DNA of 64,000 nt, from contig NZ_BJTV01000013.1 of NCBI RefSeq assembly GCF_007176755.1, positions 62,001 to 126,000 of the forward strand. The letters run 5' to 3'. Each line of letters starts with the position of its first letter. Within the stretch, counting starts at the first letter, position 1. Below, piece by piece: positions 3,009 to 21,185 of this stretch. A program made the position numbers and the translations under genes. A model generated the notes under the pieces. The model had not been told where the DNA came from. It ran no database searches and saw only the letters and a list, made by a program, of their open reading frames with translations. Origin of the DNA: Streptomyces sp. 1-11. GTDB taxonomy: Bacteria; Actinomycetota; Actinomycetes; Streptomycetales; Streptomycetaceae.

Positions 3009-3329
3009 AGAGTGAACCCTCCCGTGGACGCGTGCTCGCGTCCGTCTCCGTCTGTCTGCCTCGCTCTGGTGTGACGGTTGACCCGGTGCTCTGGTTGCCC
3101 CTGTTCCGCCTTTCCGTCCGTGCGACGGGTGTGCGACCGTGCCGACCGGCACGGCAGCCCACGTGACCCTACGACAACTTGCCTGCCAGGGGCACCCGTT
3201 CGAGTCCGGTTTTCCCCGGTTGGCCGACGACTGTCGTATCGCGGGGCCGGGTGCGGCGCCGACGCATACTGGACCGGACGTGATCACCGGTCGCGAAGCC
3301 GTGGCCGACGACCGCCCGAGGGGGCCTCG
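3009..3329. other. divergent intergenic region, transglycosylase / DUF4184
   Basis: No convincing gene. It should hold the promoters of both flanking genes. A small inverted repeat CCGTGCC-gacc-GGCACGG sits near 3138-3155. Reading the minus strand towards the transglycosylase, the 5'-leader holds purine-rich segments that faintly recall a ydaO-type riboswitch but lack its conserved core. Confidence 0.5.
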
Positions 3330-18056: not shown

Positions 18057-18716
18057 TCAGCTCTTCTTCGAGGCCTTCTTCTCCTCGTTGTCCGCGATGA
18101 CCGCCTCGGCGACCTGCTGCATCGACAGGCGCCGGTCCATCGACGTCTTCTGGATCCAGCGGAACGCGGCCGGCTCGGTCAGCCCGTACTCCGTCTGCAG
18201 GACGGACTTCGCGCGGTCCACCAGCTTGCGGGTCTCCAGCCGCTGGGTGAGGTCCGCGACCTCCTTCTCCAGCTCCCGCAGCTCGGTGAAGCGGGACACC
18301 GCCATCTCGATCGCCGGGACGACGTCGCTCTTGCTGAACGGCTTCACCAGGTAGGCCATGGCGCCGGCGTCGCGGGCCCGCTCCACCAGGTCGCGCTGCG
18401 AGAACGCGGTGAGCATCAGGACCGGGGCGATGGACTCCTCGGCGATCTTCTCGGCCGCGGAGATGCCGTCGAGCTTGGGCATCTTCACGTCCAGGATCAC
18501 CAGGTCCGGGCGGTGCTCGCGGGCGAGCTCCACCGCCTGCTCGCCGTCCCCGGCCTCGCCGACGACGGTGTAGCCCTCCTCCTCCAGCATCTCTTTGAGG
18601 TCGAGCCGGATCAGGGCCTCGTCCTCGGCGATGACGACACGGGTCGTCAGCGGAGGCACGTGCGACTTGTCGTCGTCGGGCACGTCAACGGGCTGGGGCG
18701 ACTCGGGGGAGGTCAC
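18057..18716 (-). CDS. ANTAR-domain response regulator, PdtaR type
   Basis: 219 residues from the GTG at 18716 (AAGGAG upstream). A receiver domain (about 25-145) has VVIAEDEALIRLDLKEMLEE, the phosphoacceptor Asp76 in LVILDVKMP, and LTAFSQ and KPF motifs. A coiled-coil linker (FTELRELEKEVADLTQRLETRKLVDRAK) leads to a C-terminal ANTAR domain (LVDRAKSVLQTEYGLTEPAAFRWIQKTSMDRRLSMQQVAEAVI). ANTAR regulators bind paired hairpins in RNA and act by antitermination when phosphorylated. The partner kinase (PdtaS in mycobacteria) is not in this window. The N-terminal ~22 residues are a poorly conserved acidic extension. Confidence 0.93.
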   Translation of the reverse strand: MTSPESPQPVDVPDDDKSHVPPLTTRVVIAEDEALIRLDLKEMLEEEGYTVVGEAGDGEQAVELAREHRPDLVILDVKMPKLDGISAAEKIAEESIAPVLMLTAFSQRDLVERARDAGAMAYLVKPFSKSDVVPAIEMAVSRFTELRELEKEVADLTQRLETRKLVDRAKSVLQTEYGLTEPAAFRWIQKTSMDRRLSMQQVAEAVIADNEEKKASKKS

Positions 18717-18819
18717 TCGGGCTCCTTGTTGCGAGGCAGGTCGGTACTGCTGACAAGAGCCTACCTAGCTGCGGTAAGGTGGTCAGGCAGCGGGTCGAGG
18801 TCAACCTTCGATTCACCGG

Positions 18820-18894
18820 GCCCCGGTAGCCCAATTGGCAGCAGGCGATGGATTCAAAACCCATACAGTGTCGGTTCGAGTCCGACCCGGGGCA
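18820..18894 (+). tRNA. tRNA-Leu-like, anticodon CAA, short variable loop (class I shape)
   Basis: Acceptor arms GCCCCGG (18820-18826) and CCGGGGC (18887-18893) pair perfectly; discriminator A 18894. T-arm GTCGG-TTCGAGT-CCGAC (18870-18886) is perfect. The anticodon arm is ATGGA-TTCAAAA-CCCAT (18848-18864) with one A-C mismatch at the loop-closing pair; the anticodon is CAA (18855-18857), with T before and A after as required. The D-arm is a weak 3-bp stem with a long loop. The variable region is only five bases (ACAGT). Genuine tRNA-Leu are class II with a long variable arm, so the identity Leu rests on the anticodon alone. CCA is not encoded; a TTTT run follows at 18896-18899. Confidence 0.75.
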
Positions 18895-19000
18895 CTTTTC
18901 CTTCGATCTGAAGGTCGTCACCCAAAAGCGGATCTCCGCGTTCTCGTGAATTCCCGTTCTTCGCCGCATGTCGCCGCGACCACCGTCACAGAGTGGCCGG

Positions 19001-19741
19001 ATGTACGACATCAGCACGCGCAAGCGAGCCCTCGCCCTGGTCGCCCAGGGCCGCAGCCTCAATTCGGTGAGCCGCGAGACCGGTGTCTCCCGGGCCGCGA
19101 TCCGCTCATGGCAGGACCGCCTCGAACCGCTGCCCCGCATGTCCCCTCCACCCGGGCCGCCTTCCGACACCGGCGCATACGCGTACCTGTTGGGCCTCTA
19201 CCTCGGTGACGGGTGCGTCAGCCCGCACCCGCGCGGCGGCTACTACCTCAGGATCGCGTGCGCCGACGCCTGGCCCGGGCTCATGCAGATGTGCCGCGAG
19301 GCCATCACACGCGTACGCCCCGGCGTACGCGTCCACACGGTCCGGAAACAGGGCTGCGCGATGGTGACCAGCTACTACCCGCACTGGCCCGCCCTGTTCC
19401 CCCAGCACGGCCCCGGCAAGAAGCACGAACGGCCGATCGCCCTCGCGGCCTGGCAACAGGAGATGGTCGACGCCCATCCCTGGGAGTTCATCCGGGGACT
19501 CATCCACTCCGACGGCTGCCGTGTCACCAACTGGACGACCAGACTGGTCGACGGTGAGCGCAAGCGCTACGAGTATCCGCGCTACTTCTTCACCAACGTG
19601 TCCGAGGACATCGTGCGGCTCTTCACCGATGCCCTGGAGCGGGTCCACGTGGAGTGGAGACGGGCGAACAACCGGAACATCTCCGTCGCCCGAAAAGCCT
19701 CCGTGGCCCTCATGGACGCCCACGTGGGCCCCAAGTACTGA
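19001..19741 (+). CDS. HTH plus double-motif LAGLIDADG protein (putative free-standing homing endonuclease)
   Basis: 246 residues from ATG 19001 (an in-frame ATG at 18968 would add 11). Residues ~5-42 form a resolvase/transposase-like helix-turn-helix (RKRALALVAQGRSLNSVSRETGVSRAAIRSW). Then two LAGLIDADG-like helices occur: YLLGLYLGDG (Asp70) and FIRGLIHSDG (Asp171), about 100 residues apart, the spacing expected of a single-chain enzyme with two half-sites. Both catalytic-position acids are present. YPRYFFTNVSEDIVRLFTDAL is typical of the second half-domain. Such genes are often annotated as transcriptional regulators. It starts 106 bases after the unusual tRNA and ends eight bases from the convergent pyruvate kinase stop. 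Confidence 0.75.
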   Translation: MYDISTRKRALALVAQGRSLNSVSRETGVSRAAIRSWQDRLEPLPRMSPPPGPPSDTGAYAYLLGLYLGDGCVSPHPRGGYYLRIACADAWPGLMQMCREAITRVRPGVRVHTVRKQGCAMVTSYYPHWPALFPQHGPGKKHERPIALAAWQQEMVDAHPWEFIRGLIHSDGCRVTNWTTRLVDGERKRYEYPRYFFTNVSEDIVRLFTDALERVHVEWRRANNRNISVARKASVALMDAHVGPKY

Positions 19742-19748
19742 GCCGCCG

Positions 19749-21185
19749 CTACTTGGGGCTGTCGTCCTCGCCGATGTGGTGGACGCGGACCATGTTGGTG
19801 GCGCCGGGGACGCCGGGCGGTGAGCCGGCCGTGATGACCACGACGTCACCCTTCTCGCAGCGGCCGTACCGCAGCAGCAGTTCGTCCACCTGGGCGACCA
19901 TGGCATCGGTGGAGTCGGCCTCCGGGCCGAGGAAGGTCTCCGCGCCCCAGGTGAGGCTGAGCTGGGAGCGGGTGGCCGGTTCCGGGGTGAAGGCCAGCAG
20001 GGGGATCGGCGAGCGGTAGCGGGAGAGCCGGCGGGCGGTGTCGCCGGACTGGGTGAAGGCCACGAGGAACTTCGCGCCGAGGAAGTCGCCCATCTCGGCC
20101 GCGGCGCGGGCGACGGCTCCGCCCTGGGTGCGGGGCTTGTTGCGTTCGGTGAGCGGCGGCAGCCCCTTGGCGAGGATGTCCTCCTCGGCGGCGGCCACGA
20201 TCTTGGCCATGGTGCGCACGGTCTCGACGGGGTATTTGCCGACGCTGGTCTCGCCGGAGAGCATCACGGCGTCGGTGCCGTCGATGACGGCGTTGGCGAC
20301 GTCGGAGGCCTCGGCGCGGGTGGGGCGGGAGTTGTCGATCATCGAGTCGAGCATCTGGGTGGCGACGATGACGGGTTTGGCGTTGCGCCGGGCGAGTTTG
20401 ATGGCGCGCTTCTGGACGATGGGCACCTGTTCGAGGGGCATTTCGACGCCGAGGTCGCCGCGGGCGACCATGATGCCGTCGAAGGCGGCGACGATGTCGT
20501 CGATGTTCTCGACGGCCTGGGGTTTCTCGACCTTGGCGATCACGGGGAGGCGGCGGCCTTCCTCGTCCATGATGCGGTGGACGTCGTGGGCGTCCCGGCC
20601 GCTGCGGACGAAGGAGAGGGCGACGGCGTCGAAGCCGGTCCGCAGGGCCCAGCGCAGGTCGTCCTCGTCCTTCTTGGAGAGGGCGGGTACGGAGACGGCG
20701 ACGCCGGGGAGGTTGAGGCCCTTGTGGTCGGAGATGATGCCGCCTTCGGCCACTCGGGTGTGGACCTCGGGGCCGTCGACCGCGGTGACTTCGAGGCAGA
20801 CCTTGCCGTCGTCGACGAGGATGCGTTCGCCGGGGGTGACGTCGGAGGCGAGGCCGGCGTAGGTGGTGCCGCAGGTGTGGCGGTCGCCTTCGACGCCTTC
20901 CTGGACGGTGATGGTGAAGGTGTCGCCGCGTTCAAGGAGTACGGGGCCTTCGCTGAATCGGCCGAGGCGGATCTTCGGGCCCTGAAGGTCGGCGAGGATG
21001 CCGACGCTGCGGCCGGTTTCGTCGGCGGCTTTTCGTACGTGCTGGTATCGCACCTCGTGCTCGGTCTGGGTGCCGTGGCTGAGGTTGAAGCGGGCGACGT
21101 CCATTCCGGCTTCGACGAGTGCTTTGATCTGGTCGTACGAGTCGGTGGCGGGGCCCAGAGTACAGACGATCTTTGCTCGGCGCAT
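19749..21185 (-). CDS. pyk: pyruvate kinase
   Basis: 478 residues from ATG 21185. It catalyses phosphoenolpyruvate + ADP to pyruvate + ATP. The family motifs run in order: [105 protein letters not shown] (active-site segment), and a C-terminal allosteric domain with FTQSGDTARRLSRYR. Length is normal. Streptomyces usually carry two pyk genes; this one lies next to the ANTAR regulator and tRNA, as I recall for pyk2 of S. coelicolor. The gene is monocistronic. Confidence 0.97.
   Translation of the reverse strand: MRRAKIVCTLGPATDSYDQIKALVEAGMDVARFNLSHGTQTEHEVRYQHVRKAADETGRSVGILADLQGPKIRLGRFSEGPVLLERGDTFTITVQEGVEGDRHTCGTTYAGLASDVTPGERILVDDGKVCLEVTAVDGPEVHTRVAEGGIISDHKGLNLPGVAVSVPALSKKDEDDLRWALRTGFDAVALSFVRSGRDAHDVHRIMDEEGRRLPVIAKVEKPQAVENIDDIVAAFDGIMVARGDLGVEMPLEQVPIVQKRAIKLARRNAKPVIVATQMLDSMIDNSRPTRAEASDVANAVIDGTDAVMLSGETSVGKYPVETVRTMAKIVAAAEEDILAKGLPPLTERNKPRTQGGAVARAAAEMGDFLGAKFLVAFTQSGDTARRLSRYRSPIPLLAFTPEPATRSQLSLTWGAETFLGPEADSTDAMVAQVDELLLRYGRCEKGDVVVITAGSPPGVPGATNMVRVHHIGEDDSPK

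Follow-up and report, generated by a model that had tools for sequence, protein, structure and literature searches.

A free-standing LAGLIDADG endonuclease gene beside the sole tRNA-Leu(CAA) gene of a Streptomyces genome and its probable role in the repeated replacement of that tRNA

The window analyzed here (the whole stretch of 64,000 nucleotides) belongs to a Streptomyces-type genome of 7.85 Mb and holds a single tRNA gene, placed by ARAGORN at 18820-18895 with the anticodon CAA, which is followed on the same strand by a gene encoding a LAGLIDADG protein, the two being framed by conserved neighbors. The features of the locus, in window coordinates, are as follows.

18057..18716, minus strand: response regulator, conserved left neighbor, outside the cassette.
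18757..18769, no strand: GAGCCTACCTAGC box, bounding the exchanged island on its left (five species-pair alignments; the box was placed by reading the window sequence).
18770..19420, plus strand: putative exchange cassette comprising tRNA promoter region, tRNA, spacer and endonuclease residues ~1-150 (island profiles, left boundary and N-half/C-half analysis; its extent derives from pairs of relatives and is not visible in the window itself).
18820..18894, plus strand: tRNA-Leu(CAA) of class I shape with a 5-nt variable loop (ARAGORN, Rfam, genome tRNA inventory, pattern search, structural parse).
18855-18857, plus strand: anticodon CAA of this tRNA; its discriminator A73 is at 18894.
Within 18896..19000, plus strand: tRNA 3' trailer TTTTCCTTCGATCTGAAGG (spacer sequences).
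~18924-18961, plus strand: degenerate, imperfect copy of the AAGCGGATGT..ACATCCGCTTTTT terminator-like hairpin (spacer sequences of relatives).
19001..19741, plus strand: predicted LAGLIDADG endonuclease, 246 aa from the conserved start (Pfam, AlphaFold, Foldseek, 93-homologue alignment).
19010..19117, plus strand: N-terminal helix-turn-helix, residues 4-39 of 246 (Pfam; model helices 4-15, 20-27 and 31-39).
19169..19210, plus strand: LAGLIDADG helix 1, catalytic Asp codon 19208-19210 (homologue alignment).
19478..19513, plus strand: LAGLIDADG helix 2, catalytic Asp codon 19511-19513 (homologue alignment).
19749..21185, minus strand: pyruvate kinase, conserved right neighbor, outside the cassette.

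The endonuclease reading frame opens at a first ATG at 18968 (257 aa); the start common to its homologues is Met12, at 19001, and counted from there the spacer of 106 bases given in the original prediction holds. Many relatives carry the terminator-like hairpin AAGCGGATGT..ACATCCGCTTTTT between the tRNA and the endonuclease gene, with part of the loci only passing a strict inverted-repeat test. As a candidate for a conserved element upstream of the endonuclease start, a CACAGAGTGG-like motif failed, being found in 41 of 162 clade 1 loci. The tRNA and the protein are both uninterrupted, as had been stated, and an Rfam intron search came back empty, which rules out an endonuclease encoded by a group I intron or an intein.

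The protein was accurately described beforehand as combining an N-terminal helix-turn-helix (HTH) with two LAGLIDADG repeats whose acids are intact. Pfam recognizes LAGLIDADG_3 (PF14528; 24.1 bits, cut-off 22.5) and, below the curated cut-offs, HTH_29, HTH_28 and HTH_23 at the N terminus; the two LAGLIDADG helices with their catalytic acids lie in an alpha-beta-beta-alpha-beta-beta-alpha repeat, and both catalytic Asp residues are invariant in 184/184 homologues from many families. An AlphaFold model built from 93 homologues (mean pLDDT 95) finds its best Foldseek matches in I-Tsp061I (2dch, E 2e-8), I-AniI and I-DmoI, with WhiA (3hyj) ranked lower among the matches, while a PDB sequence search gave no match and a PHROGs search weak HTH matches only. 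Variable positions cluster in the linker, in the beta strands of repeat 1 and in one strand of repeat 2; by analogy with I-DmoI, the variable repeat 1 strands would contact DNA. Judged by its motifs and its model, 19001-19741 is a two-repeat LAGLIDADG endonuclease that is predicted to cleave, and it is referred to below as the homing endonuclease (HEN).

The account of the tRNA in the original prediction is likewise borne out, inasmuch as the acceptor and T arms are perfect, the variable loop has 5 nt, the anticodon-stem mismatch, A31·C39, lies next to the loop, and the "weak" D stem consists of 3 bp plus a C13·A22 mismatch. These traits recur among relatives: the structural parse of 84 distinct class I CAA tRNAs found 13·22 unpaired in all of them and C·A in 81 (class II tRNA-Leu(CAA) mostly has G13·A22 at the same site of the D arm), a variable loop of 5 nt in 84/84, the long variable arm of class II being absent, A73 and A14 in 84/84, and pairing at 99-100% in the acceptor, T and 3-bp D stems as well as in four of the five anticodon-stem pairs. 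The A31·C39 mismatch is limited to part of the class I family, and the stems hold several pair types (e.g., GC, TA, CG and AT at D1), that is to say, compensatory change.

A relative of the HEN is encoded in 488 candidate Streptomyces stretches, and a CAA tRNA lies directly upstream in 80 of the 80 loci kept from them and in every intact Streptomyces locus added later, 198 loci altogether, with a median of 105 nt to the conserved start. In other actinobacterial families the HEN stands beside a tRNA-Leu in 45/45 loci (38 CAA and 7 UAG, the latter in one family), the tRNA being sometimes on the opposite strand in two of these families. With some 6 tRNA-Leu genes in 7.85 Mb, the chance of a random gene falling so close to one is estimated at about 0.1%. 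The co-occurrence that a scan of Streptomyces was meant to reveal is complete for the intact genes examined, and the finding that had been named as fatal to the association, a gene common without a neighboring tRNA, was not made at any of these 198 + 45 loci. Two loci of another actinobacterial family (L283 and L286) have a tandem pair of diverged LAGLIDADG genes at one tRNA-Leu(CAA). In the family with UAG (L301-L305, L308 and L315), the HEN lies beside tRNA-Leu(UAG) on the opposite strand, away from the response-regulator/pyruvate-kinase locus, and a jump to another tRNA-Leu target is a possible origin of this arrangement. Searched by tblastn, annotated phage and plasmid collections gave no match to the HEN; its distant homologues in viral DNA (25-36% identity, 14 contigs) come from IMG/VR only, have tRNA genes nearby on 11 contigs, and have a tRNA-Leu as the nearest one in 7 of 8 independent cases. 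In one viral contig (L386:3001-3732), the stretch that matches the HEN itself contains, according to ARAGORN, a class I tRNA-Leu(CAA) at 3127-3200.

The gene is, at the same time, patchy. Of 394 Streptomyces genomes, 286 have a HEN match and 27% lack the gene. HEN-less genomes keep the order response regulator - tRNA-Leu(CAA) in 69 of the 70 loci examined; pyruvate kinase usually lies 40-300 nt past the tRNA, mostly without another gene in the place of the HEN, and several of these genomes retain pieces of the HEN or the terminator-like hairpin alone, others being clean, so that the genomes with the tRNA and without the gene, for which a search had been proposed, do exist in both forms. A fixed site, patchy occurrence, a tree incongruent with that of the hosts, and empty as well as decayed alleles together mark the HEN as a mobile gene. 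Roughly three in four species have it and decayed copies are few, which is much for a purely selfish gene, and a benefit to the host could be involved.

The tRNA beside the HEN is uncommonly diverse. A first comparison of 194 Streptomyces loci yielded 91 distinct CAA tRNAs at one and the same locus, with pairwise identities down to 53% and at least eight bodies belonging to two structural classes, whereas the control, the bldA tRNA-Leu(UAA), is 91-100% identical to the copy of the window genome across 32 genomes. Of 130 loci with a clade 1 HEN, 126 have a class I tRNA, and of 31 with a clade 2 HEN, 20 have a class II tRNA; a rule equating each clade with one class was rejected as too strong (class I/II counts 126/4 and 11/20). 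Mapped on the HEN tree, the tRNA class needs 5 changes (12.4 when shuffled), and on the tree of the flanks it needs 11 (12.3 when shuffled), while the HEN clade, with 14 changes on the flank tree (16.9 when shuffled), barely tracks the flanks. In independent pairs, tRNA class and HEN clade changed together the same way about 9 times and the opposite way 0 times (median p 0.004). The link is to the N-terminal half of the HEN (5 changes) and not to the C-terminal half (11), an association that linkage and matched specificity fit equally.

The borders of the exchange are sharp. Where two species have flanks that are 96-98% identical, their tRNAs may be 57-61% identical and their HENs may belong to different clades; of the pairs with unlike HEN clades, the 10 closest have unlike tRNA types as well, without exception. 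In such pairs identity drops to 26-60% from about position -50 of the tRNA through HEN residue ~150 and recovers inside the HEN; at the left, the flanks of five species pairs are near-identical up to a GAGC(C/G)TACCTAGC box and diverge after it. As this island starts left of the tRNA, at the box, the tRNA promoter region is replaced as well, and the alignments thus show the tRNA, its promoter region and the N-terminal half of the HEN to be swapped between species as one island. Within HEN clade 1, the finer tRNA types are nearly unrelated to HEN sequence (Spearman 0.007), and therefore many tRNA swaps would have taken place without the whole HEN, with tracts that must often end just past the tRNA.

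Replacement of the tRNA is associated with the presence of the HEN. When disjoint closest pairs were formed with flanks at least 93% identical and with equal mean flank identity in both groups, the tRNA type (same type meaning 90% identity, a threshold chosen in the analysis) was the same in 15/15 HEN-less pairs versus 8/40 HEN-bearing ones (Fisher p = 4e-8), and whole clusters were uniform in tRNA type in 8/9 versus 7/29 cases (p = 0.001), figures that come from a HEN-bearing set picked partly by similarity to the HEN of the window and from HEN-less genomes of about nine clusters. A less biased draw of HEN-bearing genomes gave nearest neighbors agreeing in tRNA type in 3/21 cases, against 36/37 without the HEN. 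Comparison, then, shows the tRNA to be almost constant in HEN-less genomes; this is an association between groups that may differ in other respects.

We consider that the gene is probably a free-standing LAGLIDADG HEN residing at the actinobacterial tRNA-Leu(CAA), whose homing repeatedly replaces the single tRNA-Leu(CAA) of the cell. Comparison supplies the fixed site, the catalytic residues, the adjacency and the exchange, and from these we infer the cutting, the target and the route of transfer. Among the possibilities offered in the original prediction, it is this one, a selfish free-standing endonuclease directed at the tRNA locus in relatives, that the adjacency, the invariant Asp residues, the patchiness, the co-exchange and the turnover contrast strongly support.

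A different outcome of the same ancestry would be a domesticated regulator resembling WhiA, that is, a former HEN which binds DNA only and controls the adjoining tRNA, and through it the genes containing UUG, so that tRNA promoter and protein co-evolve. The N-terminal HTH, the fixed orientation and spacing in Streptomyces, the presence of WhiA among the Foldseek matches and a co-varying block that takes in both the promoter region of the tRNA and the HTH half of the protein would all suit such a regulator, yet its catalytic Asp residues would hardly be invariant in 184/184 homologues when WhiA has lost its catalytic residues (PMC4255298), and neither the absence of the gene from 27% of species, mostly without a substitute, nor the decayed remnants, nor the opposite-strand tRNA of two other families accords with it; the replacement of the tRNA body itself is left unexplained. 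We regard domestication as improbable. For a tRNA-guided or tRNA-regulated DNA-binding protein, which had also been put forward, the HTH is the only positive evidence.

Selection might instead act on the tRNA, if tRNA-Leu(CAA) comes under attack from anticodon nucleases, from phages or from integrases and resistant bodies are imported, e.g., from phages, with the HEN as a passenger. Actinophages do carry class I tRNA-Leu genes (CAA, UAA), a class I CAA tRNA precedes an integrase gene in Tsukamurella, and Septu cleaves tRNA-Tyr, to which phages respond with SegB-amplified tRNAs (PMC13096335). A mere passenger, however, should be indifferent to the turnover, which collapses without the HEN (15/15 versus 8/40); moreover, other tRNA-Leu genes such as bldA are conserved, and the island spans the tRNA promoter region and is not confined to the 3' end that integrases use. 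These points leave the explanation with a small chance of being correct. In the Tsukamurella case (plasmid 5, L233:2501-3780), the end of a site-specific integrase gene follows the class I tRNA-Leu(CAA) by ~15 bases, the tRNA being likely an integration site too. Class I tRNA-Leu(UAA) genes are present on replicons of Nocardia and Arthrobacter as well as in actinophages (L230, L231, L235 and L236), extending the class I Leu design beyond CAA.

Whether the tRNA decodes at all bears on any such account. The genome inventory comprises 72 Rfam tRNA matches, with leucine represented by GAG (two loci), CAG, UAG, UAA (bldA) and a single CAA, and a pattern search in 32 genomes found exactly one CAA tRNA in each, always at the response regulator/pyruvate kinase locus. 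A second canonical CAA tRNA elsewhere, looked for in both the inventory and the pattern search, was not found; the remaining pattern matches are tRNA-Met, chance matches and one further kind, which we take to be selC (tRNA-Sec). The inventory holds other oddities: two low-scoring tRNA-Gly(UCC)-like genes (L047:680-752 on G000 contig 1 and L048:784-856 on G000 contig 30), with an aberrant T loop GTGCAAGG instead of GTTCRA, an encoded CCA and compensatory anticodon-stem differences, which possibly have a non-ribosomal role such as cell-wall glycine transfer, and a second gene resembling tRNA-Pro(CGG), an odd one whose T loop is abnormal and which lies beside another weak tRNA-like match (L039:476-549, G000 contig 3). 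Of 159 UUG codons in the two genes that flank the class I tRNA in genomes carrying it, 144 stand at columns that are mostly Leu in homologues, and bldA mutants grow well (PMC4255298), so that UUG needs another reader. The CAA tRNA is therefore most likely, as far as sequence can tell, a working tRNA-Leu by which UUG is read as leucine: it is the sole CAA tRNA, its stems change in compensation, and it has the marks of membership in tRNA-Leu, namely A73, A14, a Leu-type D arm with its 13·22 mismatch, and codons read as Leu. A degenerate or non-translational tRNA, with UUG left to the bldA tRNA-Leu(UAA), might account for the unusual class I shape and the A31·C39 mismatch but is very hard to believe given a healthy Rfam RF00005 score (53.7 bits, cut-off 29), paired stems of several pair types with A73 and A14 in all 84 distinct sequences, sole CAA status in 32 genomes, the growth of bldA mutants and UUG at Leu columns, and with it fall the suggestions of a low-scoring pseudogene and of a tRNA used for something other than translation.

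Homing of the HEN at the tRNA-Leu locus would proceed as follows. When DNA with one allele meets a chromosome with another, the HEN would cleave the tRNA-Leu locus of that chromosome, either within the tRNA gene or close beside it, and gene conversion off the HEN-bearing copy would then mend the break (intronless homing with co-conversion), thereby importing the tRNA of the donor, which would be left uncut by the donor's own HEN; the tRNA would thus be cargo and resistant allele at once. Since it is the only cognate tRNA for UUG it must stay functional, and it would diversify by swapping and by compensatory change, the swaps including those that trade a class I body with its short variable loop for a class II body with its long variable arm, or the reverse, while the host tRNA would keep reading UUG as leucine.

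A broader reading, to which we give an even chance, is that of a gene drive on the bacterial chromosome, with rival HEN-tRNA alleles contending for one locus, an essential tRNA serving as cleavage-resistant cargo and the DNA-recognition half of each HEN matched to a tRNA allele spared by that HEN, rendering a normally near-invariant tRNA hypervariable (91 sequences in one genus, with switching between class I and class II) across actinobacteria, and with a phage reservoir of related tRNA-Leu/HEN units. Were homing to operate as proposed, an endonuclease would repeatedly replace part of the host's own decoding apparatus in bacterial chromosomes, and the loss and return of the long variable arm in a tRNA-Leu that goes on decoding leucine would be accounted for. 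The natural matched sets, with the same flanks and different tRNA and HEN, offer tests of tRNA identity, homing specificity and gene-drive resistance, and this new LAGLIDADG family has a likely target, the tRNA-Leu genes, that is known in advance.

The open-access literature searched yielded no earlier report of a tRNA-Leu-linked LAGLIDADG system, and as far as that literature shows, a chromosomal, tRNA-Leu-specific LAGLIDADG system turning over a sole-copy host tRNA is new. It shares with I-DmoI, I-Tsp061I and I-AniI the two-repeat fold and the catalytic Asp pair, and departs from these intron-encoded enzymes in being free-standing, with an N-terminal HTH and 11-16% identity. WhiA (DUF199) has the same actinobacterial HTH plus LAGLIDADG architecture, with the structural match 3hyj, but it is a near-universal single regulator that has lost catalysis, whereas here the Asp residues are invariant and the gene is patchy (27% of Streptomyces are without it). 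The HTH of WhiA, furthermore, sits at the opposite end from the N-terminal HTH of this protein. Acquired tRNA genes linked to a HEN gene are likewise known from mycobacterial tRNA clusters, which include a short-variable-loop tRNA-Leu(UAG) and are linked to an HNH HEN gene (PMC6582537); those, however, are extra, supernumerary clusters, while here one resident sole-copy tRNA is swapped at a fixed locus. A further parallel is SegB, the GIY-YIG endonuclease of T-even phages that is tied to the phage tRNA region (PMC13096335) and that, in the account given by a citing paper, biases the inheritance of that region (Brok-Volchanskaya et al. 2008, as cited in PMC6582537). SegB too is free-standing and intronless among tRNA genes, as the HEN here adjoins a tRNA, and where SegB is described as promoting preferential inheritance of its tRNA region, co-exchange and HEN-linked turnover are seen here and suggest a similar bias. 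The two differ in that SegB has a GIY-YIG domain, is borne by phages together with phage tRNA copies and has no reported preference for a single isotype, whereas the system described here has a LAGLIDADG fold, resides in the bacterial chromosome beside the single CAA tRNA of the host, and is specific to tRNA-Leu.
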